Shown here: positions 16,835 through 54,131 of the stretch, piece after piece | Layout of the letters: every line of letters starts with the position of its first letter | Numbering within the stretch: the stretch's first letter is position 1 | Assembly (NCBI RefSeq): GCF_001895005.1 | Contig: NZ_BCXH01000011.1 | Location: 124,001-188,000 of the forward strand | DNA: 64,000 nt | Origin: Rhodococcus yunnanensis NBRC 103083 | Lineage (GTDB): Bacteria > Actinomycetota > Actinomycetes > Mycobacteriales > Mycobacteriaceae | Direction of reading: 5' to 3' | Translations under genes and position numbers: made by a program | The notes under the pieces: model-generated | The model's database searches: none | Seen by the model: the letters and a program-made list of their open reading frames with translations, nothing else | What the model was told of the DNA's origin: nothing

Positions 16835-16844
16835 AATTCTTCCC

Positions 16845-28624: not shown

Positions 28625-29371
28625 GTGGCCACTGAACTCGTTGACGCGAACAGGTGGGCTGCCATGCACTACGACCAAGAGTTCGTGGGTGCCATCGCCC
28701 GGTTGGCAGTGCTGCCGGCCGAGAAGTGCGATTGCATAGCTGCGATGACCGAATTGAACCGCATCGCAATCGAACTGCTCGGTCTGTTCGGTAGCGGCGT
28801 CACCGTCACGGTTGCAGGCCGTCAGCATTCCATCGTGGAGTCGACCGCTCGTGAGACGGATCTGACGTGGTTCCAGGATCGTCTCGTGGTCGGGCCGTGC
28901 CGCACCACCTGGGACGCCCTGACGACGGTCTGCCTGCCGGATGTGCGTGAGTGCGTCGAGCAGTGGCCGGAGATCGCGGCCGAAGCCCGATGCACCGGAA
29001 TTGCCGGGATTGCCGGTATTCCCATGCACATCGGAATACACTGTATCGGCGTCCTTGCTCTGTACTCCGACGAACCTCGGATGTGGCGTGAGGACGACAT
29101 CAGTGCCGCCGACGTCCTGGCCTCGATGACAACCGGGTATTTGATCGATTCGACAGCGCTGTCGCAGAACGAATCTCGCGCGGCTCGGCTCGATCGTGAA
29201 GTGCAGTGCAGGATAGTCGTCGAGCAGGCCAAAGGGATGACTGCAGACGACAGGCAGGTGTCGGTCGATCAGGCCTACCGGTTGATCGAGCAACACGCGG
29301 TGCGGCACAACACAACCGTTCTTGCGGTGGCTCAGGCGATCGTCGGTGTCGGATTCCGGGTCCGCTCGTGA
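28625..29371 (+). CDS. GAF-ANTAR transcription antitermination regulator
   Basis: About 248 residues. The N-terminal 150 residues form a GAF-type sensor (ELNRIAIELLGLFGSGVTVTV, then TGIAGIAGIPMHIGIHCIGVLALYSDEPRMW). The C terminus is an ANTAR domain: RIVVEQAKGMTADDRQVSVDQAYRLIEQHA with the conserved EQAKG and A-x(4)-L pattern. ANTAR proteins bind paired RNA hairpins in leaders and prevent termination. The start is GTG 28625, or ATG 28664 which has AGGTGG upstream. The stop overlaps the GT2 start (GTGA), so the regulator is made together with the glycan enzymes. It is a paralog of the gene at 45438. Confidence 0.88.
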   Translation: MATELVDANRWAAMHYDQEFVGAIARLAVLPAEKCDCIAAMTELNRIAIELLGLFGSGVTVTVAGRQHSIVESTARETDLTWFQDRLVVGPCRTTWDALTTVCLPDVRECVEQWPEIAAEARCTGIAGIAGIPMHIGIHCIGVLALYSDEPRMWREDDISAADVLASMTTGYLIDSTALSQNESRAARLDREVQCRIVVEQAKGMTADDRQVSVDQAYRLIEQHAVRHNTTVLAVAQAIVGVGFRVRS

Positions 29372-31451: not shown

Positions 31452-33364
31452 TCTCGATCGCGCACTTCGCTCCGGCGCAGGGCGCGAGGAACTCCGCACC
31501 CAGTGACCACGGCGCATGCGGAGTTCGGCTGTGGGCGCCGATCTGTGTCTCGATAGCGGCCGGTATCGTCATTGTCGGTCTGTCGTACCGGATATCAGCG
31601 CATTCAGGCTCGCCGTCGGCGTACTACGGCGTCTTCTGGGCAGGGATGTCCGCCGCTGTCGTTCCCGTCGCCATCGTGCTGGTGCGCAGAAGCAGTACCG
31701 ATAGCCAACGGCTGTGGGCGATACTGTTGCTCGGACTGTCGACGGCCGTCCCGAAGTTCCTTCGCAACCCCGACGTACCGCTCTATCACGACGAATACGC
31801 CCATTGGCGGCAGGCGATGGATGTACTGGTCAGTGGCCGTTTGTACCATTCGAATTCGATAATCCCGATCGTCGAGTTCTATCCGGGAACCTCGGCGTCC
31901 ACTGTATCGATCGCGGGCCCGAGTGGATTGTCGGTATGGTCGTCCGGGCAACTGCTGGTGTGTGCCAGTCATGTTCTCACGCTGTTCGCCGTCTACGTGC
32001 TCGGGCGATCGCTTCTGGGCTCCGGTCGTGCAGGAGCGATTGCGGCACTGGTCTATTCGATCAATCCGTCGGCGCTCTACTTCGACACTCAGTACGCCTA
32101 CGAGAGTGTCGCCATCGGATTGTTCCTGTGGGTTCTTGCCCTTGCAACGCTCGCGGTGTCCTCGCCCGATCGTCGCGTGCGCCGTGGGTATTGTGCAGCG
32201 GCTCTACTGTGCGCGGCCGGATGCACAGTGACGCACCATCTCACGACGCTCGTGCTGCTGGCGGTCATGGCATTGCTGGCGATGTCGGTGACCGTACACA
32301 CCGCGCGATATCCGCTCGACTCCACGGACATGCCCTACGCCGCCCTGCGTTGGTGGGCACTGCTGGTCGGCATCGGGGTGATCGCAGCGTCGTGGCTGGT
32401 GTTCGTGGCTTCGCCGACCATGGCGTATCTTGCTCCGTACGTGGGTAGTTCGATTCATCAGCTGACCGGTGTCGCGGCCTCGCAGGAAGAAAGCCGCGAG
32501 CTGCTGGCGGCGAACGTGCAGCCGCTACCCGAACGAATCATGACTGCACTTGCGCCTGCGGTGGCAGGTGTGGTGTTCGTACTCGGTCTCGGCTTGGCTC
32601 GCAAGGAACGTCGGACGCTTCCCGGCGCACTGTTCGGGTTCTTCGCGCTGGCAGTGATGTACTTCGCCTCGGTGCCTTTCGTGCTCGTTCCGTCCGGTGC
32701 CGAGGGCGCCCGACGCTCATGGGCCTTCACATACGTGGCGATCGCACTGATCTTCGCCTTCGTCGCCACATCCACCCGTTGGCAGAGATCGTCGATTCGC
32801 GTCGGACGACGAGCTCGCGCGGTGACCGTGTTCGCGACGCTGACGATACTGGCGATCGGCAATGTCGGCGGCGGACTGAACGACCCGTACCGATTTCCAG
32901 GGCCGTTCCTGTGGGGGTCGGACACCAGATCCGCGTCCGAGGAGGCACGCACTGTCGCCGAACAGCTGTACTTCCAGTTCGGCAGCGTGAACGTCGTGAG
33001 TGATCGGTACACGAGCCTGGCGCTCGCGGCGTACGGGTCGCACTACATCGCCGAAGCCACCGACGCATACCCGGTATGGAATCTGACCCAGACCGATTCG
33101 GATCCCGATCCCACCCTTGCCGGTGACATGACGTTCTCCCGCTACGTGTATCTGGTCGTCGACGTTCGTATGTCCGAGGCTCCGGCGTTCAACGGTGACA
33201 ACTACGGCGCGGGGGATCCCCTTGCCGGAGAGCCGACGCCGCAGGCCTACCTCGATCGGCTCGACGCTGTCCCGTGGGCCGCCCGGATCATGTCGACCGA
33301 ACACCTTCGTGTGTATCGCCTGGATCTGGAACGAATCGGTACTGCCGTGCAGGAGGGACCGTGA
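31448..33364 (+). CDS. Polytopic GT-C-like membrane glycosyltransferase
   Basis: A 638-residue integral membrane protein with about 10-12 hydrophobic helices and a C-terminal soluble tail of roughly 130 residues. The first extracytoplasmic loop contains PLYHDEYAHWRQAMD, an acidic pair before a membrane segment as in GT-C (PMT/ArnT-type) enzymes that use polyprenyl-phosphate sugars. It fits as partner of the DPM1-like GT2. Family assignment is by motif and topology only; a polysaccharide polymerase role is an alternative. ATG 31448 overlaps the previous stop by 4 bases; the frame upstream is antisense-free but non-homologous. Confidence 0.75.
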   Translation: MISIAHFAPAQGARNSAPSDHGACGVRLWAPICVSIAAGIVIVGLSYRISAHSGSPSAYYGVFWAGMSAAVVPVAIVLVRRSSTDSQRLWAILLLGLSTAVPKFLRNPDVPLYHDEYAHWRQAMDVLVSGRLYHSNSIIPIVEFYPGTSASTVSIAGPSGLSVWSSGQLLVCASHVLTLFAVYVLGRSLLGSGRAGAIAALVYSINPSALYFDTQYAYESVAIGLFLWVLALATLAVSSPDRRVRRGYCAAALLCAAGCTVTHHLTTLVLLAVMALLAMSVTVHTARYPLDSTDMPYAALRWWALLVGIGVIAASWLVFVASPTMAYLAPYVGSSIHQLTGVAASQEESRELLAANVQPLPERIMTALAPAVAGVVFVLGLGLARKERRTLPGALFGFFALAVMYFASVPFVLVPSGAEGARRSWAFTYVAIALIFAFVATSTRWQRSSIRVGRRARAVTVFATLTILAIGNVGGGLNDPYRFPGPFLWGSDTRSASEEARTVAEQLYFQFGSVNVVSDRYTSLALAAYGSHYIAEATDAYPVWNLTQTDSDPDPTLAGDMTFSRYVYLVVDVRMSEAPAFNGDNYGAGDPLAGEPTPQAYLDRLDAVPWAARIMSTEHLRVYRLDLERIGTAVQEGP

Positions 33365-34254
33365 CCGAGCTGAGAGAACCGACGTCCCGGCACGAAGCAG
33401 CGCCGCGATCGAGTTCGACGCGCCGAGTGCTCGTGCCCTGTGCGCTCGTGCTTTTCGCCGCAGCGCTCGCCGTGAGCGATGCCCCGTCGATCGTCCGCGC
33501 CGCCGTCGTACTTCCCGTCCTGATTCTGGTTCCAGGATGGGCAGTGACCGTACTGCTCGTCGGTCGAGCGAACGATGCGCCCGAACGGCTCGTGCGAATG
33601 TGCATGTGCCCGTTGCTCGGTTCGTTGCTTCTACTCGCGGTCGTGCTCGCTCTAGGCGCCGGTGGTGTCGCTATCACCGGCGACACCGTTGCCGGATTCG
33701 GTGCGGCTGCGGCAGTGGTGTCGGTGCTCGGGGCAGAGTGGAGTACGCGACATGGCCGATCGGCCACCACGTTCGGTCGACCACCCGACGCACGGACGGT
33801 TGTCCTCGGTGCAGCGGCAGCGGTGCTGCTCGTCACGGCGCTGGTGGTTGCCGTGAAGCTGCAGCCCGAGGTTCACGAGAAGTACACCGAGCTCGTGCTC
33901 ACCGGTCCCGCGACGTCTGCCCCTGGCCAGATACACGCGAGCGCTGGGGCCGACGTGCAGATTCGCTGGGCGAGATACAGCTATGGATATTCTCTCCCAC
34001 AGGATCTGCCCGTCGTCGACGTCACCATCGCAGGTGCCTCCGTCGTCGACGAGGCGGCGACGACAGAGGCGCCCGAGCCGGTGCCGGACGCCACCACCGA
34101 TGTGGTCGACTCGCAAACGGGGAAGTTCACCGTCGCGGCACCGGAGAAATACGGGACCTATCGCGTGAGCGTGACCGTGAGCGATGCGGACGCTCCGGAT
34201 CTCCAGGCGGCCGGCAACTCCACACTCGTGATGTATCTCGAGGTGGGCAGGTGA
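33361..34254 (+). CDS. Membrane protein with C-terminal extracytoplasmic domain
   Basis: A 297-residue protein I cannot assign to a family with certainty. It has two helices near the N terminus (VLVPCALVLFAAALAVS, AAVVLPVLILVPGWAVTVLL), two more around residues 80-125, a fifth near residues 155-175, and then about 120 residues of soluble, beta-rich sequence (DVTIAGASVVDE, YGTYRVSVTVSDADAPDL). The first half recalls DUF1616-type proteins found in archaeal and bacterial glycan loci. GTG 33361 overlaps the preceding stop (GTGA) and its own stop overlaps the flippase start, so it belongs to the glycan machinery. Confidence 0.7.
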   Translation: MTELREPTSRHEAAPRSSSTRRVLVPCALVLFAAALAVSDAPSIVRAAVVLPVLILVPGWAVTVLLVGRANDAPERLVRMCMCPLLGSLLLLAVVLALGAGGVAITGDTVAGFGAAAAVVSVLGAEWSTRHGRSATTFGRPPDARTVVLGAAAAVLLVTALVVAVKLQPEVHEKYTELVLTGPATSAPGQIHASAGADVQIRWARYSYGYSLPQDLPVVDVTIAGASVVDEAATTEAPEPVPDATTDVVDSQTGKFTVAAPEKYGTYRVSVTVSDADAPDLQAAGNSTLVMYLEVGR

Positions 34255-35591
34255 GTCGGCGGTTGATCTCCGAACTACGAACTCGGGCAGCCGATCACCT
34301 GTCCGACAACCCGATGCTGCGGTCGAGCGCGGCGCTCATGTCGAGCACGGTGGCAACGTCGCTGCTCGGCTACCTGTTCTGGCTCGTCGTCGCACGGACG
34401 GCAGATGCAGACGTCAGCGGGATCGGAGTGGCGACCACCAGTGCACTGCAGATGACCGCAATTTTCGCGAGCGTCGGTGCGGGTACCGCGATGCTGCAAT
34501 GGCTACCCCAGGCGTGCGGCCCGGCGCAATGGCAGCGCATCTTCACCGCGGGAGTCGTTGTTGCCCTGGCCACCAGCCTTACGGGGTCCGTTGTCGTGGT
34601 GCTGATACTCGGACGCATGTCGAGCATTCTGCCCACCCTCGATTCGCCTGCCGCTGCCGCGTTCTTCTGCTCGGGCGCAGTGCTGTTCGCAGTGGGCACA
34701 GTTCTCGATCATGTGGCGGTGTCGGAAAGGCGAAGCATTCTGTTGTTGGCGAGGAACGTCCTGCTGTGCTCACTGCGTACCCCACTTCTGTTCGTTCCCT
34801 TCCTGGTTCGTGATCGACCCAACGAGATTCTCGTCGCGTGGACAGTGGCCGCCGCGTTGTCGCTCCCACCGTCGCTTCTGCTGTTCACCCGCGACGACTC
34901 CCGACGGTTGAGGCCCGCCTTCGGGCACGTGGTGAGCGACATCAAAGCGATGGTGCCCTCCCTCGTCGGACAGCACTTGATCTCGGTGGCAGCGGTTCTG
35001 ACGACGTTCCTGTTGCCTGTCGTCGTGTTGGCACGTACCTCGGAAGCGGACGCGGCGTACTACTACGCTGCGTGGATGTTGGGCGGAATCTTCTTCATGG
35101 TCAGCCCGTCCGTGGCCACGTCGTTGTTCGCCGAAGGGTCGGCCGACCCCGCGAGGATCCACGTGTCGGTGGTGCGGTGCTGCCGAATCATCACAATCTC
35201 GATCGCACCGCTGATCGTGTTCTATCTCGTCTGCGGTGGGTGGTTGCTGCAACTGTTCGGGCCGGCATACGAGCAGAACGGGCGGGCTCTGTTGCTCGTG
35301 CTGACGTTCTCTGCGATTCCGGATGCCGTCACCAATGTCGCGGTTGCGGTCCTGCGGTCCACGAACCGGCTCGGGGCCGCGCTTCGCCTCAACACCGCGA
35401 TGCTTGTCGTGTGCCTCGTGCTGTCGTGGCTGTTGCTGCCGTCGGTGGGAATCGTCGCGGTCGGTATCGCGTGGATCGTGAGTCGAAGTGCAGGAGCGGT
35501 GTGGGTAGCGGTGCAGTGGCGCTCGATCATGGCGGCGCCAGGTGAGGCGAACGGCGCTCGCGCGGACACCGAACCAGGACGGGCCGAATGA
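34251..35591 (+). CDS. Wzx-like polysaccharide flippase (MOP superfamily)
   Basis: A 446-residue polytopic protein with about 12-14 helices and little soluble sequence. It begins DNPMLRSSAALMSSTVATSLLGYLFW, the usual Wzx/RfbX opening, and continues with YYYAAWMLGGIFFMVSPSVATSLFAEG and QLFGPAYEQNGRALLLVL, both typical of MATE/Wzx polysaccharide exporters. It should move lipid-linked oligosaccharide across the membrane. GTG 34251 overlaps the upstream stop by 4 bases. A longer reading in this frame (from 33195) is a shadow of the two genes before it. Confidence 0.85.
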   Translation: MSRRLISELRTRAADHLSDNPMLRSSAALMSSTVATSLLGYLFWLVVARTADADVSGIGVATTSALQMTAIFASVGAGTAMLQWLPQACGPAQWQRIFTAGVVVALATSLTGSVVVVLILGRMSSILPTLDSPAAAAFFCSGAVLFAVGTVLDHVAVSERRSILLLARNVLLCSLRTPLLFVPFLVRDRPNEILVAWTVAAALSLPPSLLLFTRDDSRRLRPAFGHVVSDIKAMVPSLVGQHLISVAAVLTTFLLPVVVLARTSEADAAYYYAAWMLGGIFFMVSPSVATSLFAEGSADPARIHVSVVRCCRIITISIAPLIVFYLVCGGWLLQLFGPAYEQNGRALLLVLTFSAIPDAVTNVAVAVLRSTNRLGAALRLNTAMLVVCLVLSWLLLPSVGIVAVGIAWIVSRSAGAVWVAVQWRSIMAAPGEANGARADTEPGRAE

Positions 35592-36850
35592 AAGTTCTTC
35601 TCGTCTGCGACAGCTATCCACCGGCCACCGGTGGCCTCGAACGAGCGGTCCAAGCTCTGGCCCACGGACTGGTCCGCGCCGGTGACGAGGTCACGGTGGC
35701 GACTCTGGGGCATCCGAGTGGTGCGACGGCCGACGACCCTGGCGTCGGTGTGGTGGGTGGCGTTCGTGTGGTGGGAGTCGACGGGTGGAGTCGGCACCTC
35801 GACAGGTTCTCCACCGACCCGAACCATCGCTTCCATCCCACGGCCCCGGATCCGGCACTGACTATGGCACTGCAGCATCTCGTGGACGAGATTCGTCCCG
35901 ACGTGGTGCATGCGCATGGCTGGATCGTGTTCTCGTGCCTACTGCTTCGGCTGCCGCTGGGCTCGGCGTTGGTCCACACCCTGCACGATTACGGTCTGAC
36001 CTGTGCAAAGAAAACGCTTGTCCGACAACAGGATCTGGACAGCTGCTGCGAGGGGCCCGCGCTCGGTCGCTGTCTGCCCTGCGGACGGGACGCATACGGC
36101 GCGGTGAAGGGCGGCGCTCTGGTGCTGGGCCTGGCAATGACCAGACCGCTCCTCGGCCGCATCGACATGTTCCTACCCATCAGTGCAGCAGTTCGAGCAA
36201 GCATGCCGGACGTCGGGCCGAAACGAGTTCGGATCATCCCGTCCTTCGTCGCCGACGACGTCGCGAACGAGGCCTCGGCAGCGGTCCCGCCCGATTGCCT
36301 GCCCGCGGGCGAGTACATCGTCTTCGTCGGAGCTTCGGGCGCGCACAAGGGCGTCGACACCTTGGTGGAGGCACATCGACAGATGCGGCATCGGATACCG
36401 CTCGTGGTGATCGGTCCGGCGCAGGTTCGGCAGCACCCGCGCTCGGGTACACCCGAGCGACCGGTGATCCACGCCGGATCGCTTGCACACGGGCCGGTGA
36501 TGGCGAGTCTCGCATCGGCGAAAGTAGCTGTGGTGCCGTCACGTTGGGCAGAGCCGCAGGGGTTGGTCGCGATCGAGGCGATGGCAGTCGGTACACCGGT
36601 CGTCGCATGTGACGTCGGGGGATTGCGTGATGTGGTCTCCGAGGAGACGGGACTCGTGGTTCCCCCGGGTGATCGTGCCCGGTTGGCAGACGCGCTCGAT
36701 CGGCTTCTCGACGATGCCGCGCTGCGCCAGCGCACGGGTGTGGCTGGCGCAGCGCGCGCCCTCGGGTACACGGAATCGGCAATCGTTCCCCTTGTGCGGC
36801 AGGCCTATCGGGCAGCACAACGGAATCGACATGAGACGGAATCGACGTGA
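35588..36850 (+). CDS. Glycosyltransferase family 4 protein (last gene of operon)
   Basis: A 420-residue GT-B enzyme: MKVLLVCDSYPPATGGLERA, VVHAHGWIVFSCLL, a cysteine-rich insertion (DSCCEGPALGRCLPCGRD) near residue 150, then YIVFVGASGAHKGVDTLVEA and VPSRWAEPQGLVAIEAMAVGTPVVA with the E-x7-E motif. The four-cysteine insertion is seen in some GT4 enzymes and may bind metal. ATG 35588 overlaps the flippase stop (ATGA). It ends 25 bases from the convergent GH6 gene. Confidence 0.88.
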   Translation: MKVLLVCDSYPPATGGLERAVQALAHGLVRAGDEVTVATLGHPSGATADDPGVGVVGGVRVVGVDGWSRHLDRFSTDPNHRFHPTAPDPALTMALQHLVDEIRPDVVHAHGWIVFSCLLLRLPLGSALVHTLHDYGLTCAKKTLVRQQDLDSCCEGPALGRCLPCGRDAYGAVKGGALVLGLAMTRPLLGRIDMFLPISAAVRASMPDVGPKRVRIIPSFVADDVANEASAAVPPDCLPAGEYIVFVGASGAHKGVDTLVEAHRQMRHRIPLVVIGPAQVRQHPRSGTPERPVIHAGSLAHGPVMASLASAKVAVVPSRWAEPQGLVAIEAMAVGTPVVACDVGGLRDVVSEETGLVVPPGDRARLADALDRLLDDAALRQRTGVAGAARALGYTESAIVPLVRQAYRAAQRNRHETEST

Positions 36851-36875
36851 GCGATCGGCCCACCGAAACATGCGG

Positions 36876-37862
36876 TCACCGACCGGAATTACGCACTAGA
36901 TCCACCGCATAGGCCTGCCACCAGACGCTGGAAGGCGGATCACCCCGGTCGCACGTGCCGTCCGATTCTCCCGGATGTTTGACCCACAGGTACGCATCTG
37001 CGTGTGCGTCGTCGGTCTGCGCTGTCGGCTCGTCGCCGAGAGCACGACCCGGCGGATTGCACCAGTTGAGCGGTGCGTCGGGTGCAGGTCCGTTCCCGTT
37101 ACGTGAAGTATCGATGACATAGTGCTTGCCGCCGAGCAAACTCGACACCGTCTCGCCGTACGCCGATTCCTCGGCCGTGCTGAAGAAGTTCGCGACGTCG
37201 AGGCTGAAGCCTCGTATCCTGTCGACACCGACAGCTGCCAGCATCGACGCGAGATCCGGTGGGCTGAGCCACCGGGAATGTCCGCCGTCGAGATAGACCG
37301 CGACGTGCGGTAGATCCGCGAAGACCGACACCGCGTGCCGGAGCATGTCCAACCGAGACTCGGTGTCGGCTGGATCGAGGCAGGTGGTGGCCGTCAGTGC
37401 ATCCGGTTCGACGATCACGGCTGCTGTCCTGTCGCCGATCGCCGTTCCCAGACCGTCGATCCATGCACGATACTGCCCAGGATCGGTGAACCCGCCTGCC
37501 GAGTAGGAGCCGCAATCGCGGTGGGGGATACCGTACGTCACCACTACGGGAATCGCATCGGCCGCTGCCGCGTCGACCACATACCGCTGCACCGACTCCG
37601 GGGACGCCGACGAGTCGAACCACCGTGCCTGTGGGGTGTCGGCGATGACCGAGATGTCCCGTGCGTCCTCGGGATAGCGGATCACTGCCCGCGATGCCGA
37701 TGTGTCGGGGGAGACGTACAGAGGTTGTGTGGTGAAGATGTTGGATTCGGTATGCCCTTCGGCGGAGGACCGAACCGGGGCCGCAGCACTACCGAGCATC
37801 AGTAGCGCGAACACTGCGCATGCTCCGATGGCCGCCTTCGACTCGTCCATGACCCGGGCCAC
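36876..37862 (-). CDS. Secreted glycoside hydrolase family 6 (cellulase family)
   Basis: A 328-residue protein with an N-terminal signal segment (AAIGACAVFALLMLGSAAAP) and one GH6 domain, no carbohydrate-binding module. GH6 signatures are VVTYGIPHRDCGSYSAGG with the catalytic-site Asp in RDC, AVIVEPDAL, VYLDGGHSRWL, LDVANFFST, VIDTSRNGNGP, WCNPPGRALG and VKHPGESDGTC. GH6 enzymes cut beta-1,4-glucan with inversion. The GTG at 37862 shares a base with the NRPS stop (TAGTG), so it is co-translated with the peptide synthetase; ATG 37850 is an alternative. It may trim or release a glucan made by the neighbouring operon (inference). Confidence 0.9.
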   Translation of the reverse strand: MARVMDESKAAIGACAVFALLMLGSAAAPVRSSAEGHTESNIFTTQPLYVSPDTSASRAVIRYPEDARDISVIADTPQARWFDSSASPESVQRYVVDAAAADAIPVVVTYGIPHRDCGSYSAGGFTDPGQYRAWIDGLGTAIGDRTAAVIVEPDALTATTCLDPADTESRLDMLRHAVSVFADLPHVAVYLDGGHSRWLSPPDLASMLAAVGVDRIRGFSLDVANFFSTAEESAYGETVSSLLGGKHYVIDTSRNGNGPAPDAPLNWCNPPGRALGDEPTAQTDDAHADAYLWVKHPGESDGTCDRGDPPSSVWWQAYAVDLVRNSGR

Positions 37863-40800
37863 TACGTAGACCCGGCGTAGTCGCGCCGCAGGCTCTGCAG
37901 GACGAGCTCGGCGACTTCCAGCGCCCGTGGCCGACTCAGCAACGTCGCATGGTCACCCGGCATGCGGTGTGTCGTCAGAGGGCCTCGATGCAGTTCCTTC
38001 CAGCCCAGCGCTGCCCGCCCCACCGCAGTTGCGGTCTCCTCGGTCACGAACAATTCCATGGGCACGTGATGGCCACCGCGGGAATACCGTTGGATGATGT
38101 CCCATGCTCCGCGCAGATCGAACTGCTCGGCTTCGGCACGGCGCACGAGTCTGGCTTCGATCAATCTCTCGCGCGCTGCCCACCGTAGGTTGGCCGCGTA
38201 ATCGAGGACCATCTTCGTCCGATCGGGTTCGCGGACGCGAGCCAGCCTGCCGGCGGGTGACTTCCACCTGCGGATCAGCTGACGCGCCATTTCCGGGGTC
38301 GGCGAGTCCAACATCACCACTCGCTCGACGTGGCTCCCATCCTCGGACAGCCTTCGGGCCAGCTCGTACGCCAGCAGCCCACCGAACGAGTATCCGAGCA
38401 GGACGTACGGTCCATGCGGTGTGACCGACCGAATGGCGTCGAGCAGAGGAGCGGCGAGTTGCTCGATACTGTGCCAGCGGGCATACCTCCCGCCGGGCAA
38501 TATCGGCAACAGAGGGTGCGCAGGTAGCTCGTCCTTCCACACCGACGACAGATGCCGAAGGCTCATTGCGCTGGCCAGATCGGGGTAGACGACGAAGATC
38601 GGTGGTGCCGAGCCAGCCTGCTGCGGGCGGGATCGCGAGGCGACGGTCTGTGCTGTCAGATCGGTCAGCCCGGCCAATGTGGTTCCCCGTGCGAGGAAGT
38701 CGGCCAAGGTGACCGAGATGCCGAGGGTGGATTCGATCCGCGCCAGCAGCTGCGCTGCGTGCAGCGAGTGCCCGCCCAGATCGAAGAAGTTCAGATTCTC
38801 GTCGACGGTGTCGACTCCGAGAACATCCGACCACAGTGCGGCGACGTTCGTCCGCGCATCGGGATCGACTCCGCCGCCGATCCGCTTACGCTGCAGGCGT
38901 GTTGTGGTGTCGTCCATCACCGGGGCCGGCGCGGGTAGAGCTGCGCGGTCGAGCTTTCCGCTGATCGAAGTGGGCAGCGCGGAAAGATGTACGACGGCAG
39001 TAGGGACCATGTAGTCCGGAAGGCGGGTTCGCATCCAGGCTCTGAGCTCGACCTCGAGCGAGACCGATTCCCGCGAGGACGATCCCCGCGAGGCCGGCTG
39101 CGGGCCGACGACGTAGGCCACGAGTTGACGCCGCCCATCGCGGTCCTCGCGTGCGGCGGCGGCCACTGCATCCAGTCCAGGAAACTGTGCCATCACCGAC
39201 TCGACCTCGCCCAGCTCGACACGGAAGCCGCGTATCTTGACCTGGTCGTCGTTGCGACCCAGATGTTGCAGCCGTCCGTCGCTGAGCCACCTGCCTCGAT
39301 CCCCGCTGCGAAAGACCATGTGTCCCTCGCAGAATGGATCGGGCAGGAATCTGCGTTCGGATTCTTCGGGTCGATTGGCATACCCCTGCGTCACTCCCGA
39401 TCCGCCGATCAGAATTTCTCCCGGTACTCCTGTGGGGACCAGGCGAAGTCGCTCGTCCACCACGTAGAGCCGAACACCGGTCAAAGGCTTTCCGACAGTG
39501 ATGGGTTCACCTTCGCTCACGAACCCACCGCCGGCGAAGACGGTCGTCTCGGTGGGTCCCCACCCGTTCCACACCGCACGGCATCGCGCGAGCAGTGCGT
39601 CGGCCAGCGGTTCGGGAAGTGGCTCTCCCACACTGCCCGCGACGAGTGCCGGGTTGCCCGACCAACCCGCCGCGATCAGTGCCGACCACGTGGTCGGCGT
39701 CGCGCCCATGAACGTGGCGCCGGATCGGCCGACGAGATCGATCAGCAACCGTGGATCCTTGGTCTGCTCCTCGTCTGCGACGACGAGTGCGGCCCCGACC
39801 CCGAGCGTGGGAAAGATGTCCCCGATCGACATGTCGAAGGTGTAGGACGCCACCGAGAGTACGGTGTCGGCGGCTGTGGTTCCCAGCGCCTCGGGCATGG
39901 AATCCATCAGGCTCGTCACGTTGCGATGCTCGACTCGAACGGCCTTCGGCGTACCGGTCGTCCCGGAGGTGTAGATCATGTATGCCAGATCTCCGGGTTC
40001 TGTTGCACGCGAGCTCTTGTCCGGTACACGAGAGCTCTCGACGAGAGCTTCCACGACGAGCCCGCGGTGAGCGCGCGGATGATCCGGCGACGAATCGGTC
40101 AAGAGCACACGTGCCCCCGAGTCGGCGATCATGAACTCACGTCGTCGGGCCGGCTGCGCCGGGTCGATGGGAACATACGCCGCACCGGACATCAGAATGC
40201 CCAGCAGCGCAGGAACCAAGTCGATCGAGCGAGCGAGCACAGTCGCAACGACATCGCCGCACGTCACGCCTGCATCGAGAAGAAGCGCCGAAATGGACTG
40301 GGCGCGTTCCGCGAGTCGACGATAGGTCAAGCTCTGAGTGCCGACGACCACCGACACCGCATCGGGTGTGCGCCGTGCCTGCTCCATCACGCGGGCATCG
40401 ATGCGGGTGCTCGCATCGTGAGGTGTACGCGTCAGGTGCAGTAGTTGACGGCGACGATCGTCGGTGTCGGGCTCGAGGAGTTCCGTCAGAGGTACGTCAG
40501 GAGTGCTCGAGATCCGATTCAACAATCGAACGTACTGCTCGGTCATCGACTGTGCTGTGCCGCAATCGAACAGATCCGTGCTGTAGATCAATCGGCCGGT
40601 GACGTGGCCCTCGCTACGCTGGTCGAGTTCCATGCTCAGATCGAACTTGGACTTACCGAGTGCTGCCCCGATCGCATTCTCCATCTGATGCATGGACCAC
40701 GACGGGTCGGGTGTCAGCATCGGCGGTTCCAGGACGAACGCAGACTGGAACACCGGGTTTCTTCGGGGGTCTCGCGGTAACCCGAGGCTGCGAACCAGGT

Positions 40801-41944
40801 GCTCGAACGGCACTGCGTTGCCGATCGCGTCGAGAATCTCGTGGCGCACTTCCCGGAGGAGATCGGTGAACGTCGACGCGCCCTCGGACGAGCATCGTAG
40901 GACGACGGGGGTGAGGCAGTACCCCACCATCGACTCGAGCTCCGGTCGTTGTCGTAGGTCGCAGGCGGTGGCGAACACCACGTCGCGGGTACCTGAATAG
41001 CGCTGCAGCCAGTATGAGTATGCGGCCGCCAATACCTGGAACAGAGTCGCGTTCGCGGATGCGGCGAGCTCGCGCAGCGCACGTACGGTCGCAGGCTCGA
41101 TCGAGATCGGCACGACGTCGCCTGCCGAGGACTTCAGGGGAGGGCGCGGTCGGTCCTGGGGGAGATCGAGTGGCTGCGCGCCACTGAGCCGAGCGCGGAA
41201 GTGCTCGATTCTTCGTTCGACCTCGGGTGAACTCACCCACTCCCGCTCCCACACAGCATAATCCGGGTATCGGATGGGAAGCGGCGGCAGCAGCGCCTGT
41301 ACTCCCGCGCAGCGTGCGTCGTACAGGGCGACGAGCTCGGGCAGTACTATCCGGTACATACTGACACCGTCGAAGACCAGATGATGCATGCTCAGATACA
41401 GTCGGTGGTCCGATCGAGACAGCCGTACGAGCAGAGGTCGAATCAACGGGCCCGTCGACAGGTCGTACGGCTGCGAAGTGCGTTGTATCGCAATCGATGT
41501 TGCCTCGGTCTCCGCATCGCCCTCACTCAGGTGGCTCAGATCGAGCAGCGCGGGCTCCGAAGGCAGATGCTCGTGCACCACTTGCACGGGTTCACCGTCC
41601 AGGGTCTCGAAGGTCGTACGCCATGCGTCGTGCCGTCGAACCACGTGATCGAAGGCCCAGCGAAATGCATCGACATCGAAGGATCCGCTCTTGCGCACGG
41701 TGACCAGTTCGTTGTAAGCCGAAGAGTGCGGAGACATTCGGTCGACCAGCCACAGTTGCAGTTGCGCAGCCGACAGCGGTGCCCGGCCGTGCGGGTGGTC
41801 GATTCGCCGAACCGGATGATCACAGGCACGGCCACGAGTGTGTACACCGCGCAGTCGTGCGTCGAGAAGCCTCCTACGTGCCTCGGTCAACTCGGCCTCG
41901 CTGAAACTCCGCGCTTGGCGGCGATCGCCGTTGTGGGAGCTCAT
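37862..41944 (-). CDS. Nonribosomal peptide synthetase, C-A-T-TE
   Basis: A 1360-residue termination module. Condensation domain (about 55-490) with intact HHLVFDG at 187-193. Adenylation domain (about 510-1005) with YTSGTTGTPKAV, FDMSIGD at 703-709, WNGWGPTETT near 792, GRNDDQVKIRGFRVELGE and SGKLDR. Thiolation domain with FFDLGGHSL (phosphopantetheine Ser1060). Type I thioesterase with GYSFGG (Ser1186) and GDH (His1332). Hand-aligned to GrsA, the specificity residues read D-M-G-G-G-V-G-V-F-K, which I cannot match to an amino acid. The single C domain implies one upstream aminoacyl or acyl donor, most simply the free-standing A-T protein. ATG 41944 overlaps the P450 stop (ATGA). Confidence 0.93.
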   Translation of the reverse strand: MSSHNGDRRQARSFSEAELTEARRRLLDARLRGVHTRGRACDHPVRRIDHPHGRAPLSAAQLQLWLVDRMSPHSSAYNELVTVRKSGSFDVDAFRWAFDHVVRRHDAWRTTFETLDGEPVQVVHEHLPSEPALLDLSHLSEGDAETEATSIAIQRTSQPYDLSTGPLIRPLLVRLSRSDHRLYLSMHHLVFDGVSMYRIVLPELVALYDARCAGVQALLPPLPIRYPDYAVWEREWVSSPEVERRIEHFRARLSGAQPLDLPQDRPRPPLKSSAGDVVPISIEPATVRALRELAASANATLFQVLAAAYSYWLQRYSGTRDVVFATACDLRQRPELESMVGYCLTPVVLRCSSEGASTFTDLLREVRHEILDAIGNAVPFEHLVRSLGLPRDPRRNPVFQSAFVLEPPMLTPDPSWSMHQMENAIGAALGKSKFDLSMELDQRSEGHVTGRLIYSTDLFDCGTAQSMTEQYVRLLNRISSTPDVPLTELLEPDTDDRRRQLLHLTRTPHDASTRIDARVMEQARRTPDAVSVVVGTQSLTYRRLAERAQSISALLLDAGVTCGDVVATVLARSIDLVPALLGILMSGAAYVPIDPAQPARRREFMIADSGARVLLTDSSPDHPRAHRGLVVEALVESSRVPDKSSRATEPGDLAYMIYTSGTTGTPKAVRVEHRNVTSLMDSMPEALGTTAADTVLSVASYTFDMSIGDIFPTLGVGAALVVADEEQTKDPRLLIDLVGRSGATFMGATPTTWSALIAAGWSGNPALVAGSVGEPLPEPLADALLARCRAVWNGWGPTETTVFAGGGFVSEGEPITVGKPLTGVRLYVVDERLRLVPTGVPGEILIGGSGVTQGYANRPEESERRFLPDPFCEGHMVFRSGDRGRWLSDGRLQHLGRNDDQVKIRGFRVELGEVESVMAQFPGLDAVAAAAREDRDGRRQLVAYVVGPQPASRGSSSRESVSLEVELRAWMRTRLPDYMVPTAVVHLSALPTSISGKLDRAALPAPAPVMDDTTTRLQRKRIGGGVDPDARTNVAALWSDVLGVDTVDENLNFFDLGGHSLHAAQLLARIESTLGISVTLADFLARGTTLAGLTDLTAQTVASRSRPQQAGSAPPIFVVYPDLASAMSLRHLSSVWKDELPAHPLLPILPGGRYARWHSIEQLAAPLLDAIRSVTPHGPYVLLGYSFGGLLAYELARRLSEDGSHVERVVMLDSPTPEMARQLIRRWKSPAGRLARVREPDRTKMVLDYAANLRWAARERLIEARLVRRAEAEQFDLRGAWDIIQRYSRGGHHVPMELFVTEETATAVGRAALGWKELHRGPLTTHRMPGDHATLLSRPRALEVAELVLQSLRRDYAGST

Positions 41945-43161
41945 ACGGACCACCGGACCCTCATGGCCTGCAGGCCGCGAAGACCGAGGTTCGGACGCCA
42001 CACGAGCGGTTCGGGAACGAGTGAGAGGTCGGGAAGACGGGAGAGTACCGCGGCGAAGGCGGCTGCGGCCTCCATTCGGGCCAGCGGCGCACCGAAGCAG
42101 AAGTGGGCCGCCCAGCCGAATGCCAGATGCCGGTTGTCACTCCGGCACAAATCGACTCGATTCGGATCGGGAAAGCGATCCGGATCGCGATTGGCCGCCC
42201 CCATCACTGCGATGACCGCCTGCCCCTTCTCGATCGGTCGACCCGCGATCGAGGTGTCGCGCGGTGCGAGCCGGGCCGTGTGTTGGCTCGGGCTCTCGAA
42301 GCGCAGCAATTCTTCGACCGCGCTGGGCATGAGCGTCGGATCCGCTCGAAGCTGCTGCAGTGCAGCGGGATGTCGCAGCAGTGTCAGCAGCCCGTTGCCG
42401 ATCAGATTCGTCGTCGTCTCCTGTCCGCCCACCATGGTGACTATGACGTTGGCGACGACCTCGTCCTCGGTCAGCCGGTCGCCGTCGATCTCGGCGTTGG
42501 TGAGCGCGTTGACCAACCCATCGGTCGGGTGCGCCGCTTGCGCACGGATTGCATCTCTGAAGTAGCAGGTCATCTCGTCCACGCTGCGCAGCACCTGTGC
42601 CGTTCGCCCTGGATTGTGTTGAAAATTTCCGAGCATCTCCGCGAAATCGGTCGACCATTTCTTGAGCATCTCGTGATCGGACGTCGGTACGCCGAGCATC
42701 TCCGCGGTCACGATCGCGGGCAACGGATTGGCCAACTCGGCCATCACATCCATGTGCCCTCTGCCTGCGACTGCATCGACGAGCGAATCGGTGATGCCCT
42801 GGATGTGAGCTGCGAGTTCCTCGATTCGCCGCGGCGTGAAAGCAACCGCGGCGAGCCTTCGCACCCGTCCATGCGCTGGGCGGTCGAGAAAGAGCATCTG
42901 CGCAACCATGATTCGGGCGAGAGGCGTCAGGTTCTCCATACCGAGTTCGACGAGCTTGTCCGGGGTCGGGGTCCTGTTGGCACTGAAAGTGGTCAGAACC
43001 TCGACGACGTCGGCGTATCGGGTGACCACCCATGCATGCAGGTAGGGGTCCCACAGCACGGGAGTCTCGGCGCGCAAGCGTGCGTACAGAGGATATGGGT
43101 CGGCCAGTACCTCCGGGTCGAGTAGGTGGAACAAACTGGGTGTCTTGGTCGGTGCGTTCAT
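41941..43161 (-). CDS. Cytochrome P450
   Basis: A 406-residue soluble bacterial P450. It has LLDPEVLADPYPLYARLR at the start, the I-helix oxygen-activation motif VTMVGGQETTTNLIGN, the ExxR motif EELLR (E284/R287), AANRDPDRF and the heme loop FGWAAHFCFGAPLAR with ligand Cys355. No redox partner gene is nearby. It lies one base after the A-T gene and overlaps the NRPS gene by 4 bases. Free-standing A-T protein plus P450 is the arrangement known from NovH/NovI and NikP1/NikQ, where the P450 beta-hydroxylates the carrier-bound amino acid; by analogy this one may hydroxylate carrier-bound leucine. Confidence 0.92.
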   Translation of the reverse strand: MNAPTKTPSLFHLLDPEVLADPYPLYARLRAETPVLWDPYLHAWVVTRYADVVEVLTTFSANRTPTPDKLVELGMENLTPLARIMVAQMLFLDRPAHGRVRRLAAVAFTPRRIEELAAHIQGITDSLVDAVAGRGHMDVMAELANPLPAIVTAEMLGVPTSDHEMLKKWSTDFAEMLGNFQHNPGRTAQVLRSVDEMTCYFRDAIRAQAAHPTDGLVNALTNAEIDGDRLTEDEVVANVIVTMVGGQETTTNLIGNGLLTLLRHPAALQQLRADPTLMPSAVEELLRFESPSQHTARLAPRDTSIAGRPIEKGQAVIAVMGAANRDPDRFPDPNRVDLCRSDNRHLAFGWAAHFCFGAPLARMEAAAAFAAVLSRLPDLSLVPEPLVWRPNLGLRGLQAMRVRWSV

Positions 43162-43162
43162 C

Positions 43163-45016
43163 TCAGCTGATGCCCCCGTCCATGTCGACGGCGTTCGTCA
43201 ACGATTCCGCGCTCATCTCTGCAATCTGCTGCACCAGTAGGCGTTCGATCTCGACCGCCATCTGCGCGACGGACGGATGATCGAACAAGTCGAGCAATGT
43301 CATCTCGACGCCGTAAATACGGGAGATCTCGATGATCAGCTGGGCGCCGAGCATCGAATGTCCACCGAGGAGAAAGAAATTGTCGTCGACGCCGATTTTC
43401 GTGGTCTTCAGTCGCTCCGCAACCATGTCGAGCAGCGTTGCTTCCACCGTGGTGAGCGGGCGGTCCTCGATCCGGTCCCCGCGGTCGGGCGGCGGGAGAG
43501 ACCGAAGCGCGGTTCGATCGATCTTGCCGTGTGCTGTCGTCGGCAATTCGGTGACCGCGACGACCGTATCGGGCACCATGAAGTCCGGTAGTCGCTGTGC
43601 GAGATAGTGCTGGAGGTCGACTGTGCCCATATTCGAATCCTGCTGAAACACAACGAACAGGGCGAGCCGCGGGTCGCCGGATCCTTCGATCGGAACAACT
43701 GCGCAGGTGCGAACCTCGGTACAGGCTCGGAGGGCGTCGCCGATTTCACCGATCTCGACTCGGAATCCCCGAATCTGCACCTGATCATCGACGCGGCCGA
43801 GGAAGTCCACGCTGCCGTTGTCGTCCATGCGCACCACGTCGCCGGTGCGATAGGCGCGAACCGCGGAATCCAACGGGTCGGAGACGAATCGCTGCGCAGT
43901 GAGTCGGGGCAGTCCGAGGTATCCCCGTGCGACGCTGACGCCGCAGATCACCAGTTCCCCGATGGATCCGGGCGGCACCGGTTTTCCGACATCGTCGACG
44001 ACCCTGAGCTCTACTCCGTCGATCGGCGTACCGATCGACGGAGCGTGAACGGAGTCGGATTGGGCTGCAACGGTTCCCGATGTCGAGACCACCGTTGCCT
44101 CGGACACTCCGTAATTGTTGACCAGTTCGAAGGGCAGCCCCGGCGGCGGCAGGTGGCGAAGGACGTCGCCGCCGGTCAGCAGGTACCGCAGGGCCGCCGT
44201 GGGCGGCCACGGAAGTTCGACGAGGGTTTCGGCCAGTGGCGTCGGGAGGAACGCGACGGTGATGTTCTCGGCAATCATCCAGTCTCGCAGACGAACCGGA
44301 TCGGTCTTGAGTGCCGCCTCGGGTACGTGGAGGCAGGCGCCCGCGCAGAGTGTCGGCCAGATTTCCCAGGCCCCGGCATCGAAGCCGGGGTTGGCGATCA
44401 GCGTCGTTCGATCACTCGCCGTGAGGTCGAATGTGTTTCGGTGCCAGTCGACGAGATTCAGCAGACCGGCGTGCTCGACCATGACGCCCTTGGGCTTTCC
44501 GGTCGAACCGGAGGTGTAGACGACGTACGCGAGATCGCCTGGGGCAGGAACAGTGTGGCTCATCGACGCTGAGGGCGTAGCGCTCGGCGACGTGCAGGGC
44601 GATACCACATCGACTGTGCCGGACAACGTATCGACCATCGATGGGTATGCGACCGCGACACCCGCGCCGCAGTCCGCCACCATGAAGTCCAGCCGCTGGT
44701 GCGGCTGATCGGGATCGAGTGCGACGTACGTTGCGCCGAGTGCGAGAATTGCCAGCGCTGCCACGATCAGGTCCGACGATCGGGGCAGGCACAGCGCGAC
44801 GAGGTCGCCGCGCGCCACACCGGCCTGCTGCAGCCGAATACCCAGTTCGTTCGATCGCGCAGTCAGTGCCGAGTACGACAGGTGGTCGTCGGCGCTTCGC
44901 ACCGCCGGCGCGTTCGGTGTGGCACGCGCTCGATCGAATACCTGCCCGGTTATGTCGAACTGCGTGGCAGGGCTGTCGAGACGATTCTTGTGTGCCGAAT
45001 GCTGCGTCGAGTACAT
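43163..45016 (-). CDS. Free-standing NRPS adenylation-thiolation (A-T) didomain protein, predicted Leu
   Basis: A 617-residue protein with one adenylation domain (about 20-500) and one thiolation domain (about 520-600; FFLLGGHSM, Ser554), no C or TE domain. Core motifs are YTSGSTGKPKGVMVEH, GFDAGAWEIW, YRTGDVV, GRVDDQVQIRGFRVEIGE and HGKIDR. Pocket residues aligned by eye to GrsA are D213, A214, W217, F256, L280, G282, N301, V309, V310, K498, i.e. DAWFLGNVVK, a code classically assigned to leucine. The A5 motif is NNYGVSEAT instead of NxYGPTE. First gene of the A-T / P450 / NRPS / GH6 operon. AGGGG lies 6 bases before ATG 45016, inside a hairpin. Confidence 0.93.
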   Translation of the reverse strand: MYSTQHSAHKNRLDSPATQFDITGQVFDRARATPNAPAVRSADDHLSYSALTARSNELGIRLQQAGVARGDLVALCLPRSSDLIVAALAILALGATYVALDPDQPHQRLDFMVADCGAGVAVAYPSMVDTLSGTVDVVSPCTSPSATPSASMSHTVPAPGDLAYVVYTSGSTGKPKGVMVEHAGLLNLVDWHRNTFDLTASDRTTLIANPGFDAGAWEIWPTLCAGACLHVPEAALKTDPVRLRDWMIAENITVAFLPTPLAETLVELPWPPTAALRYLLTGGDVLRHLPPPGLPFELVNNYGVSEATVVSTSGTVAAQSDSVHAPSIGTPIDGVELRVVDDVGKPVPPGSIGELVICGVSVARGYLGLPRLTAQRFVSDPLDSAVRAYRTGDVVRMDDNGSVDFLGRVDDQVQIRGFRVEIGEIGDALRACTEVRTCAVVPIEGSGDPRLALFVVFQQDSNMGTVDLQHYLAQRLPDFMVPDTVVAVTELPTTAHGKIDRTALRSLPPPDRGDRIEDRPLTTVEATLLDMVAERLKTTKIGVDDNFFLLGGHSMLGAQLIIEISRIYGVEMTLLDLFDHPSVAQMAVEIERLLVQQIAEMSAESLTNAVDMDGGIS

Positions 45017-45075
45017 GGGCTGCCCCTTGTGGTCCGATCCGGATGGAACGGGGCACCGAGTAGCAGGGGCAGCCC
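45017..45075 (-). promoter_or_regulatory. Leader hairpin covering the RBS of the NRPS operon
   Basis: In the leftward transcript, GGGCTGCCCCT (45075-45065) can pair with AGGGGCAGCCC (45027-45017), a perfect 11-bp repeat with a 37-base loop. The second arm includes the ribosome binding site AGGGG and runs to the base before the ATG. When folded it would block initiation; opening it would switch translation on. Confidence 0.6.
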
Positions 45076-45307
45076 CACGTGATCAGCGCAGCGAAACCGG
45101 GGGCACGAGTATCGCGGCTGACCCGAAAATACTCCACGTCCCGGTGCGGCGGCTACGGTTCGGGCGGAGGAAATCGAACTCGGTTGCAACTCTGCTTCGA
45201 GTGCGTAGAAGTTGTCGTAAACCGACGGGATCGAGAGTACGGTTCAGGGAATCAAGTTTATCGCATGTTTTTCGATGGTCGGGGCGGCGAAGTAGCAGCT
45301 CATCGGA

Positions 45308-45330
45308 CAACCAGTGTGAAGGACTGGTTG
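45308..45330. repeat. 8-bp inverted repeat upstream of GAF-ANTAR gene
   Basis: CAACCAGT (45308-45315) and ACTGGTTG (45323-45330) flank a 7-base GTGAAGG loop. It lies 108 bases before the chosen start. It may be an operator or an RNA hairpin. The loop is seven bases, so it does not fit the published paired hexaloop ANTAR target as it stands. Confidence 0.45.
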
Positions 45331-45437
45331 AAAAACACTGAATTAACTGATGCGAGTGCGGGTTCGAAGACGCCGGGTAGATGCCGCACGCCTTGAACAA
45401 GAAATTTGACATATTCGCGCGTAAGGAATCCCTGCTC

Positions 45438-46178
45438 ATGACTCACCTCGCTGTGCAATCTTTGCCTGCCTGTCCGCCTCGGACTCCCTCCTCGCCAGTG
45501 TGTGAACACGGCGTCAGCGAACTATCACCCTGCGCGAGCGCACCGGAATCCGATGCAGAGCCACTGCCGACGCTCGGGGCCTCGCTGCGTGCCCTCGAAG
45601 AGGTGTGTTCGGTGGCTGTCCGAACGTTGGCTCTTCGGACCAGCGTCATCGTCGCGACGGTCGGCCGGTCCGATCACACCGTCAGTGCGGGTTGTGCAGA
45701 CGGTGTGATGCCGGAGCAGGATCGATCGACAGTCCGCTGTATCGCGAACATCGGCGGCACGGCCACGATGCGGCCGTCGTTCCACACCGACAGGCCGACA
45801 GGCCGGCGTGCGGCAACTGCGTCGATTCTGCTCGAGCGAGAAGGCGTGCGTCTCGGGGCTCTGCATCTGTGGTCGGCGGAACCGCGTCCGTGGCGGCCGG
45901 CCGATCTCGATATCGCCCACCGGCTGGGAACGGTTGCGGCGACACACATCGACTTCGCAACTCGGCTGTGGCAGCAGGAACAGCTCGTATGCCAGCTGAG
46001 CTACGCACTGGAGGCGAGAATCATCGTCGAACAGGCGAAAGGGATCATTGCCAACGACAGGCAGATCGATGTCGAGAAGGCGTACGAGCTGATTCGACGG
46101 CACGCGAGACGTCACAATGCGACAGTCCGAGCTGTGTCCAACGCCATCGTCCACGCAGGGATGAGGGTCGCTCGATAG
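45438..46178 (+). CDS. GAF-ANTAR transcription antitermination regulator
   Basis: About 246 residues. The middle (RALEEVCSVAVRTLALRTSVIVATV to ILLEREGVRLGALHLWSAEPRPWR) is a GAF-like sensor. The C-terminal ANTAR domain reads RIIVEQAKGIIANDRQIDVEKAYELIRRHARRHN, very close to the ANTAR of the regulator at 28625. ANTAR proteins bind RNA hairpins and prevent premature termination. ATG 45438 has AAGGA ten bases upstream; ATG 45381 would add 19 unlikely residues. It is divergent from the NRPS operon and the likely local regulator. Confidence 0.85.
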   Translation: MTHLAVQSLPACPPRTPSSPVCEHGVSELSPCASAPESDAEPLPTLGASLRALEEVCSVAVRTLALRTSVIVATVGRSDHTVSAGCADGVMPEQDRSTVRCIANIGGTATMRPSFHTDRPTGRRAATASILLEREGVRLGALHLWSAEPRPWRPADLDIAHRLGTVAATHIDFATRLWQQEQLVCQLSYALEARIIVEQAKGIIANDRQIDVEKAYELIRRHARRHNATVRAVSNAIVHAGMRVAR

Positions 46179-46186
46179 GACCGGAG

Positions 46187-47215
46187 CTAGTCCTGCTCGA
46201 CGCCGAGGCTGATGCCACGGGAAGCGAGCCAGGGAAGTGGGTCGATCTTGTTCTCGCCGGGCAGGTGTACCTCGAAGTGGAGGTGAGGCCCGGTGGAGAA
46301 GCCGCGGTTACCCATGCGTGCGATCTGGTCTCCGGCCATGACGTCCTGGCCGACGCTGACGGTCGCGCTGTCGATGTGGCCGTAGACGGTGATGGTGCCG
46401 TCCGCGTGCTGCAGGCGAACCCACATTCCGAAACCCGAGGCGGGACCGGCATCGATGACCTTGCCGTCGGCGACCGCGAGGATCGGCGTTCCGATGGCGT
46501 TGGCGATGTCGACTCCGGCGTGCAGCGTTCCCCAGCGGGTTCCGAAGTTCGATGTGTACGTTCCGACGGCCGGCAGTACGAACAGCGGGCGGCGGGCGGC
46601 GGCCTCGCGGGCGGCACGCTCCTCGCTGAAGCGCTGGCCCTTGGCCAGAAGGTCGCTGAACTGGCTCAGATCGACAGCGTTGGCGACGTTGAGAATCTGC
46701 GGAGCGGACGACGGCGACGTGTCGGTCGTGTCTGCGGCATATCCGGCAGCCTGCGGTACCGCGGTTGCTGCGATTCCTGGGGCCGCACCGGCGGCGAGAG
46801 CAACTTCCTCGGACGAGGTTGCTGTGGTGGTGTCATGATCGACGATGGCCTGTCCCGCTGCGACGACGGCGCCCGCGGCAACTGCCAGGACCGCTGCGCG
46901 ACCCTTGAGTGCGGTGGGGGGCGTCGGGATGCGGTGCGCTCCACCCTTGCGGGGAACGGCGGTGACGGTCTCGAATGTGTCGGCGGTACCGAACTCGGAA
47001 GAATCGAGCGATTCGGGAGTGCTGTGCAGCTCGGAATCGTGGTAGCTGTCTGCCGAGCCGTAGTTGCTGGCAAAGTAGTCGTACCGGTTCGAGTCGAGGT
47101 CTTCGGTCTCGGCACCCCAGCTGGTCTCGTTCGAGTACACGGTGGGTGCGCTGTCGGTCACGACCGCCGGTGTGACGAAGCGGCTGGAAGTGAAGGAAGC
47201 GCGGTGTTGCGACAA
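46187..47215 (-). CDS. M23-family peptidase (LytM/NlpD-like), membrane anchored
   Basis: About 342 residues. After a Ser/Tyr-rich cytosolic N terminus comes one membrane segment (GRAAVLAVAAGAVVAAGQAIV), a linker with an Ala/Arg/Glu-rich helix, and a C-terminal LytM domain: FGTRWGTLHAGVDIANAIGTPILAVADG (H-x3-D zinc ligands) and STGPHLHFEVHLPG (HLHFE). It should cut or help cut cell-wall peptide cross-links. It matches Rv0950c in M. tuberculosis order, beside sucC. I chose the TTG at 47215, which has GGAGG nine bases upstream; the frame is open to 47317 but lacks a better start. Confidence 0.88.
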   Translation of the reverse strand: MSQHRASFTSSRFVTPAVVTDSAPTVYSNETSWGAETEDLDSNRYDYFASNYGSADSYHDSELHSTPESLDSSEFGTADTFETVTAVPRKGGAHRIPTPPTALKGRAAVLAVAAGAVVAAGQAIVDHDTTTATSSEEVALAAGAAPGIAATAVPQAAGYAADTTDTSPSSAPQILNVANAVDLSQFSDLLAKGQRFSEERAAREAAARRPLFVLPAVGTYTSNFGTRWGTLHAGVDIANAIGTPILAVADGKVIDAGPASGFGMWVRLQHADGTITVYGHIDSATVSVGQDVMAGDQIARMGNRGFSTGPHLHFEVHLPGENKIDPLPWLASRGISLGVEQD

Positions 47216-47319
47216 GACCTGCGACCTCCGTTTCGTGATCTGCTCGTGACTTAAGACTCGGCAGACGGTAACGAAACGATTGCAACGGGCGCAAGTTTTC
47301 CGGCCCACAAGAGGCATAT

Positions 47320-52782: not shown

Positions 52783-52881
52783 CTTCAATGTTCAACACAA
52801 TTCGGCGGAAATGGCCCTCCGTTGCATTCATCGTGATTTCAAGTGTGGGCAGGGTCGGTGAAGATCGGTTCACTGGTGACC

Positions 52882-54105: not shown

Positions 54106-54131
54106 CGCGCCCAGCTATATCGAGGAGAACA

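Follow-up and report, generated by a model that had tools for sequence, protein, structure and literature searches.

Why should an operon for non-ribosomal peptide synthesis end in a cellulase-family gene? This question is raised by a locus of Rhodococcus yunnanensis NBRC 103083, located in a stretch of 64,000 nucleotides (the window) of contig NZ_BCXH01000011.1 (positions 124,001–188,000; contig C11 here). Four consecutive genes encode a stand-alone adenylation–thiolation (A-T) protein, a cytochrome P450, a non-ribosomal peptide synthetase (NRPS) with condensation, adenylation, thiolation and thioesterase domains (C-A-T-TE), and a hydrolase of glycoside hydrolase family 6 (GH6). The operon was found within an inserted block of 13 genes that also contains a convergent glycan-type operon. 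We assign a probability of roughly 0.45 to the reading that it forms the peptide half of an 18.8-kb locus for an extracellular glycan and a peptide partner, in which a hydroxyleucyl dipeptide would serve the glycan and probably be carried on it.

The four-gene operon

The initial annotation of this DNA had described four leftward genes. All four were found as minus-strand open reading frames (ORFs) at these positions, and their domains agreed with a Pfam run on about 27 ORFs of the window:

43163–45016, minus strand: stand-alone A-T NRPS protein, 617 amino acids (AMP-binding 3.9e-72, PP-binding 8e-13)
41941–43161, minus strand: cytochrome P450, 406 amino acids (p450 2.9e-28)
37862–41944, minus strand: C-A-T-TE NRPS, 1360 amino acids from the ATG at 41944 (Condensation, AMP-binding, PP-binding and Thioesterase)
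36876–37862, minus strand: GH6 hydrolase, 328 amino acids (Glyco_hydro_6 6.6e-63), with a hydrophobic N-terminal stretch

The longest ORF of the NRPS opens with a GTG at 42001 (37862–42001, 1379 amino acids), and the ATG at 41944 was considered the likelier start. The junctions of +1, −4 and −1 given earlier were also read from the sequence: +1 between the A-T and P450 genes, −4 (an ATGA overlap) between the P450 and NRPS genes if the ATG at 41944 is taken as the start of the NRPS, and −1 (TAGTG) between the NRPS and GH6 genes. An MbtH-like gene had been reported as not seen in the window; a search of the whole genome gave a single MbtH match, on contig C5, and the window, being part of contig C11, is therefore without one. 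Among the open-access papers listed, neither a locus of such make-up nor a characterised cluster of these four genes was found. A term search of two surveys of Rhodococcus biosynthetic clusters (PMC11433410, PMC5550956) gave no such locus either.

An 18.8-kb block between pcrA and an M23 peptidase gene

The operon is part of a block at 27365–46186 (18.8 kb, 13 genes) that lies between pcrA (24893–27364) and an M23 peptidase gene (46187–47317). The corresponding junction was read in 29 of the 36 other genomes of the genus (loci returned), and pcrA and the M23 gene directly adjoin in all 29. Similarity to these congeners stops at 27360–27369 and restarts at 46169–46203, varying by congener, which puts the left edge no more than a few bases from the stop codon of pcrA and the right edge near that of the M23 gene. 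Besides the four genes above, the block contains the following (identities refer to the three relatives described below):

27454–28524, plus strand: GT4-type glycosyltransferase (Glyco_transf_4 8.1e-28; 48–51%)
28625–29371, plus strand: GAF-ANTAR regulator 1 (ANTAR 3.3e-11; 31% to a gene at the glycan end of one relative's block)
29206–30309, plus strand: GT2 glycosyltransferase, polyprenyl-phosphate-sugar synthase-like (Glycos_transf_2 1.8e-30; 58–67%)
30306–31451, plus strand: GT4-type glycosyltransferase (Glyco_trans_1_4 1.3e-17; 58–60%)
31403–33364, plus strand: large membrane protein with 10 hydrophobic segments and a DE motif (54–57%)
33274–34254, plus strand: weakly DUF1616-like membrane protein (0.0017, 18.0 bits, cut-off 31.6; 30–32%)
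34314–35591, plus strand: weakly flippase-like multi-pass membrane protein (MatE 6.9e-5, 23.0 bits, cut-off 24.9; 54–56%)
35588–36850, plus strand: GT4-type glycosyltransferase, convergent with GH6 (Glycos_transf_1 2.2e-27; 54–56%)
45381–46178, plus strand: GAF-ANTAR regulator 2, transcribed away from the A-T operon (ANTAR 5.2e-14)

The glycan-type operon thus comprises four glycosyltransferases, the large membrane protein and the DUF1616-like and MatE-like proteins, and is convergent with the NRPS operon. The best NCBIfam match of the GT2 protein was AglJ (2.6e-30, under its cut-off). The DE motif of the large membrane protein resembles that of GT-C enzymes, and its HDEY residues were invariant across the four sequences compared. 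For the flippase-like protein, a PDB search gave no match at E 0.1, and no Wzz chain-length protein was present among the Pfam matches of the block ORFs.

The whole block recurs at another site in another genus

Relatives were sought with the P450 in 401 genomes of the family (E 1e-85), and 40 kb were then compared for each locus of genus g31. Matches were found in three g31 genomes (73–75% identity), in two g30 genomes (61%) and in a further g31 genome, G948 (40%). The three g31 genomes (G936, G907 and G963) were shown to keep the complete block and its gene order, apart from one ANTAR gene that lies at a different place: A-T, P450, C-A-T-TE and GH6 facing GT4, flippase-like, DUF1616-like, large membrane protein, GT4, GT2 and GT4, with ANTAR genes at both ends. 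Within the NRPS half, identities to the window's proteins were 49–53% for the A-T protein, 72–75% for the P450, 50–52% for the NRPS and 55–57% for GH6; within the glycan half they were 48–67% for the glycosyltransferases, 54–56% for the flippase-like protein and 54–57% for the large membrane protein. The least conserved members were the DUF1616-like (30–32%) and ANTAR (31–39%) proteins, all others falling within 48–75%. Since the same four genes recur in the same order in three other genomes, their association is more than chance. The g31 block begins 6.7–8 kb downstream of rpoC (checked by Pfam in G936, and by ORFs that agree in length in G907 and G963), and the block thus stays together at two chromosomal sites.

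One marker of each half was followed through 28 g31 genomes: the P450 at E 1e-100 was present in three, the large membrane protein at E 1e-25 in the same three, and the 25 others had neither. In a draw of 401 genomes of the family, relatives of the large membrane protein at 55–58% were restricted to these three genomes, the window's own genome matching at 100%. Among 394 genomes of the class, the window's own was the only one with a match at 1e-90. In the order, of which 397 genomes were examined, the P450 match next after the g30 pair was at 45% (G384); these draws of order, class and family overlap. G384 (locus L088) was rejected as a relative, its neighbouring genes matching the A-T protein and NRPS at just 25–26%, and in G195 (L089) the P450 match stood alone. 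Among the matches listed, the best matches of the NRPS protein in 60 relatives showed 33–41% identity. A scan of genome contigs with the A-T protein gave 25 loci with distant A domains only (best-segment identity 29–37%). Compared with plasmids, the operon gave two matches of 1% by megablast, and the P450 and GH6 matched 16 and 13 records, respectively, all below 60% identity.

Beside the block of G907 (locus L132), a ThiF/nitroreductase-domain gene and a GGDEF-EAL gene (12880–15039 and 15070–16926) were observed, both outside the window's block; G963 has ORFs of similar size at this place.

Loci with one half only

The two g30 genomes (G400 and G381) contain a shorter NRPS locus, with A-T (51–52%), P450 (60–61%) and C-A-T (50%) genes and no TE. 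Directly 3′ of the TE-less NRPS gene lies a TupA-like ATP-grasp gene (PF14305; L086 15235–16128, L087 4411–5727), which in L086 overlaps the NRPS gene by 4 bases. Among the neighbouring genes identified are those for an amino-acid permease, a PDDEXK nuclease, a TetR regulator and a short-chain dehydrogenase; the other two g30 genomes examined were without the P450. These loci suggest that A-T, P450 and C-A-T form a core that can be separated from the rest, with TE and GH6 going with the glycan half: both were present in four of four loci with that half and absent from two of two without it. The TupA-like domain of Campylobacter (Cj1438C) is reported to form amides on capsule glucuronic acid (PMC11800379). 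The gene following the NRPS core in the two relatives resembles Cj1438 in its TupA-like domain and is not part of the window's block.

On the glycan side, distant relatives of the large membrane protein were found in G137 and G079 (28–29%), together with a flippase-like relative in each (26% in G137, 32% in G079) and, in G079, a glycosyltransferase relative (42%).

Peptide assembly

The specificity code of the A-T protein, placed by hand on motif anchors at the Stachelhaus positions, reads DAWFLGNVVK, a leucine code; all ten letters are identical in the A-T proteins of G936, G907 and G963. The second A-domain code (approximately D-M/V-G-G/S/C-..-G-V-F/Y-K) was alike in all six sequences compared and is not known to match any established specificity code. 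The HHxxxDG motif of the C domain and the GGHS motif of the T domain were intact in six of six sequences (four full-length, two TE-less), and GxSxG was intact in all four that have a TE. These motifs are consistent with a predicted product of two residues.

The heme-cysteine and ExxR motifs were present in all six P450 sequences. The closest solved chains were 8yhn (titled only Cytochrome P450), BioI and PikC, among the best 60 of 306 matches, many of them generically named. The A-T gene adjoins the P450 gene in the window and in five other loci, and because the two form such a pair, the P450 presumably hydroxylates the amino acid loaded by the A-T protein, here leucine. Known stand-alone A-T proteins paired with a P450 include NovH/NovI, NikP1/NikQ and BpsD/OxyD. 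The present locus resembles these in having a separate A-T didomain gene followed by a P450 gene, a likeness of gene arrangement, and differs from them in its leucine code, in the C-A-T-TE NRPS and GH6 genes that come next and in the glycan-type operon that it faces.

The GH6 hydrolase

GH6 closes the NRPS operon in all four full loci, and among 37 genomes of the window's genus it was found in its own genome only (E 1e-20). As the gene recurs at this position in three relatives, its reading as a stray gene was rejected. A hydrophobic stretch at residues 8–30 suggests that the protein is secreted. The nearest solved chains were 1uoz and 1up0 (1.2e-96 in a PDB search), titled putative cellulase Cel6 / CelA1, of M. 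tuberculosis; the present gene differs from this relative in ending an NRPS operon. Stretches IPxRDCG, EPDAL and ESDGxC were common to four GH6 sequences and may include the catalytic Asp residues. Since the four genes make up one half of a block of 13 that is conserved, GH6 makes more sense as a companion of the glycan than as an unusual fourth member of an NRPS operon.

Proposed function and alternative explanations

According to the reading that we prefer, leucine would be loaded onto the A-T protein and hydroxylated by the P450, probably at the beta carbon and while bound to the carrier; the C domain would join the leucine-derived residue to a second residue, and the TE would release or transfer the dipeptide. 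The other half would yield a lipid-linked glycan, which its GT2 and GT4 enzymes, together with its GT-C-like and flippase-like membrane proteins, would build and export. The dipeptide would end up on this glycan, GH6, if secreted, might trim or release the polymer, and the two ANTAR proteins may control the two convergent operons. The bond between peptide and glycan is the central inference, drawn from the linkage conserved at two sites, the GH6 gene and the TupA-like gene of the TE-less relatives. More specifically, and only tentatively, since we hold it to be rather less probable than the general reading, the product may be a hybrid envelope polymer of glycan units bearing the NRPS-made hydroxyleucyl dipeptide, with the peptide–sugar bond formed through the hydroxyl made by the P450 or by a TE step (ATP-grasp in relatives), and with GH6 as its dedicated processing enzyme.

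Dlt-type aminoacylation of envelope polymers relies on an adenylation enzyme and a carrier. The present locus shares these two components and differs in having a two-residue NRPS with a P450 and a TE; no DltB-like acyltransferase was present among the Pfam matches of the block ORFs. For the glycan half, a precedent is the Wzx/Wzy-type polysaccharide cluster wps-1 of the actinomycete Actinoplanes missouriensis, in which glycosyltransferases, a flippase (here a weakly flippase-like protein) and a large membrane protein are likewise accompanied by a glycoside hydrolase, there of family GH26 (PMC13390465). Unlike that cluster, the block has GH6 with an NRPS and a P450, and no recognised Wzy or Wzz; in the main text on wps-1, the terms nonribosomal, non-ribosomal, cytochrome P450 and GH6 are absent (PMC13390465).

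Several observations weigh against the proposed function. No evident enzyme for joining peptide to sugar is found among the block genes, no polymerase or chain-length gene is recognised in the block, the large membrane protein (31403–33364) is without a match in Pfam, NCBIfam and PDB, and the MatE and DUF1616 matches both lie under their cut-offs. Relatives of each half also occur alone: around the g30 NRPS core, 60 kb of G400 and 40 kb of G381, with part of the ORFs put through Pfam, gave no relatives of GH6 or the glycan genes, and the first A-domain code differs there as well (DVNFHGNVTK in both genomes); the 20 kb fetched from each of G137 and G079, the latter with a related glycan cluster, gave no NRPS or GH6 relative. 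The independent cases number about three, since G907 and G963 are close (98% P450 identity), and the large draws scored mostly the best four candidates per genome, or the best three for the membrane protein.

The NRPS might instead make a free hydroxyleucine dipeptide or diketopiperazine, a signal or matrix component, with both halves co-regulated and travelling together but chemically unjoined, and with GH6 loosening the matrix. The TE motif in the four full loci, ANTAR regulators at both block ends, a block without a ligation gene and the two genomes in which the NRPS core has no glycan relatives nearby all agree with this. The same two core-only genomes also speak against it: the TE is gone and the gene next after the NRPS encodes a TupA-like ATP-grasp protein, so that ligation suits those loci better than free release, and we regard a free molecule as unlikely, if worth serious attention. 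In a glycosylated peptide, the leucine hydroxyl made by the P450 would be the attachment point for an oligosaccharide built and exported by the glycan operon. Hydroxylated residues are common sites of sugar attachment in non-ribosomal peptides, and glycosyltransferase genes are present in all four full loci; the GT2, GT-C-like and flippase-like proteins nevertheless agree more with a lipid-linked polymer than with sugars being added to a released dipeptide, a polymer is also what GH6 suggests, and this explanation appears improbable.

Variable sites gather unrelated clusters, and with relatives of the halves also found apart, an NRPS cluster might have come to lie beside a capsule-type cluster and a stray cellulase gene by chance. 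Two genera that share the gene order at different chromosomal sites, and markers of both halves in the same 3 of 28 genomes, make such neighbours by chance very improbable. Least credible is the self-contained four-gene dipeptide operon of the initial annotation, in which GH6 would act in the peptide pathway. Tight junctions, complete domains and the constant place of GH6 at the operon's end favour it, and its account of the operon stood, with a leucine code and with intact C, T and TE motifs that fit a two-residue product; its placing of GH6 is the less likely one, as the recurring unit is the 13-gene block and GH6 is missing where glycan relatives are missing.

Regulators, leader regions and neighbouring genes

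The two ANTAR regulators of the block are relatives, with 46% identity over 106 amino acids. Regulator 2 showed 39% identity over 132 amino acids to the gene at the same place in a relative, whose own best match in the window is regulator 1. The g31 relatives too carry one ANTAR gene at each block end. An ANTAR-type hairpin is a hexaloop with A1 and G4; one was found in eight stretches (four A-T leaders, four glycan-side), in the leader of G963, and simple shuffles gave 0.3–0.6 expected per A-T leader. Rfam gave zero matches at E 1 across 27300–46300, no tRNA was detected at 20000–52000, and promoter- and terminator-like sites were rarer than in shuffled sequence. The window's A-T leader had a folding z of −2.13.

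Two g31 relatives have an inverted repeat of 30–32 nucleotides 5′ of the A-T gene (L132 17639–17668 and 17891–17920; L130 17388–17419 and 17610–17641), with arms 84–90% complementary and 190–222 nucleotides apart; such a repeat was not found in the A-T leader of the window. Elsewhere in the window, an acyl-CoA-dehydrogenase-like gene and a luciferase-like monooxygenase gene adjoin at 52843–55256.

Implications

If the proposed function is right, a single locus, conserved and transferable, links non-ribosomal peptide synthesis to the assembly of a surface glycan, and the cellulase-family gene at the end of an NRPS operon is explained. The exchange of TE and GH6 for a TupA-like gene among the related loci suggests that what one peptide core makes can be processed in two ways. 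Should the hybrid envelope polymer be true, the NRPS would be a machine for envelope decoration and not the maker of a free metabolite.

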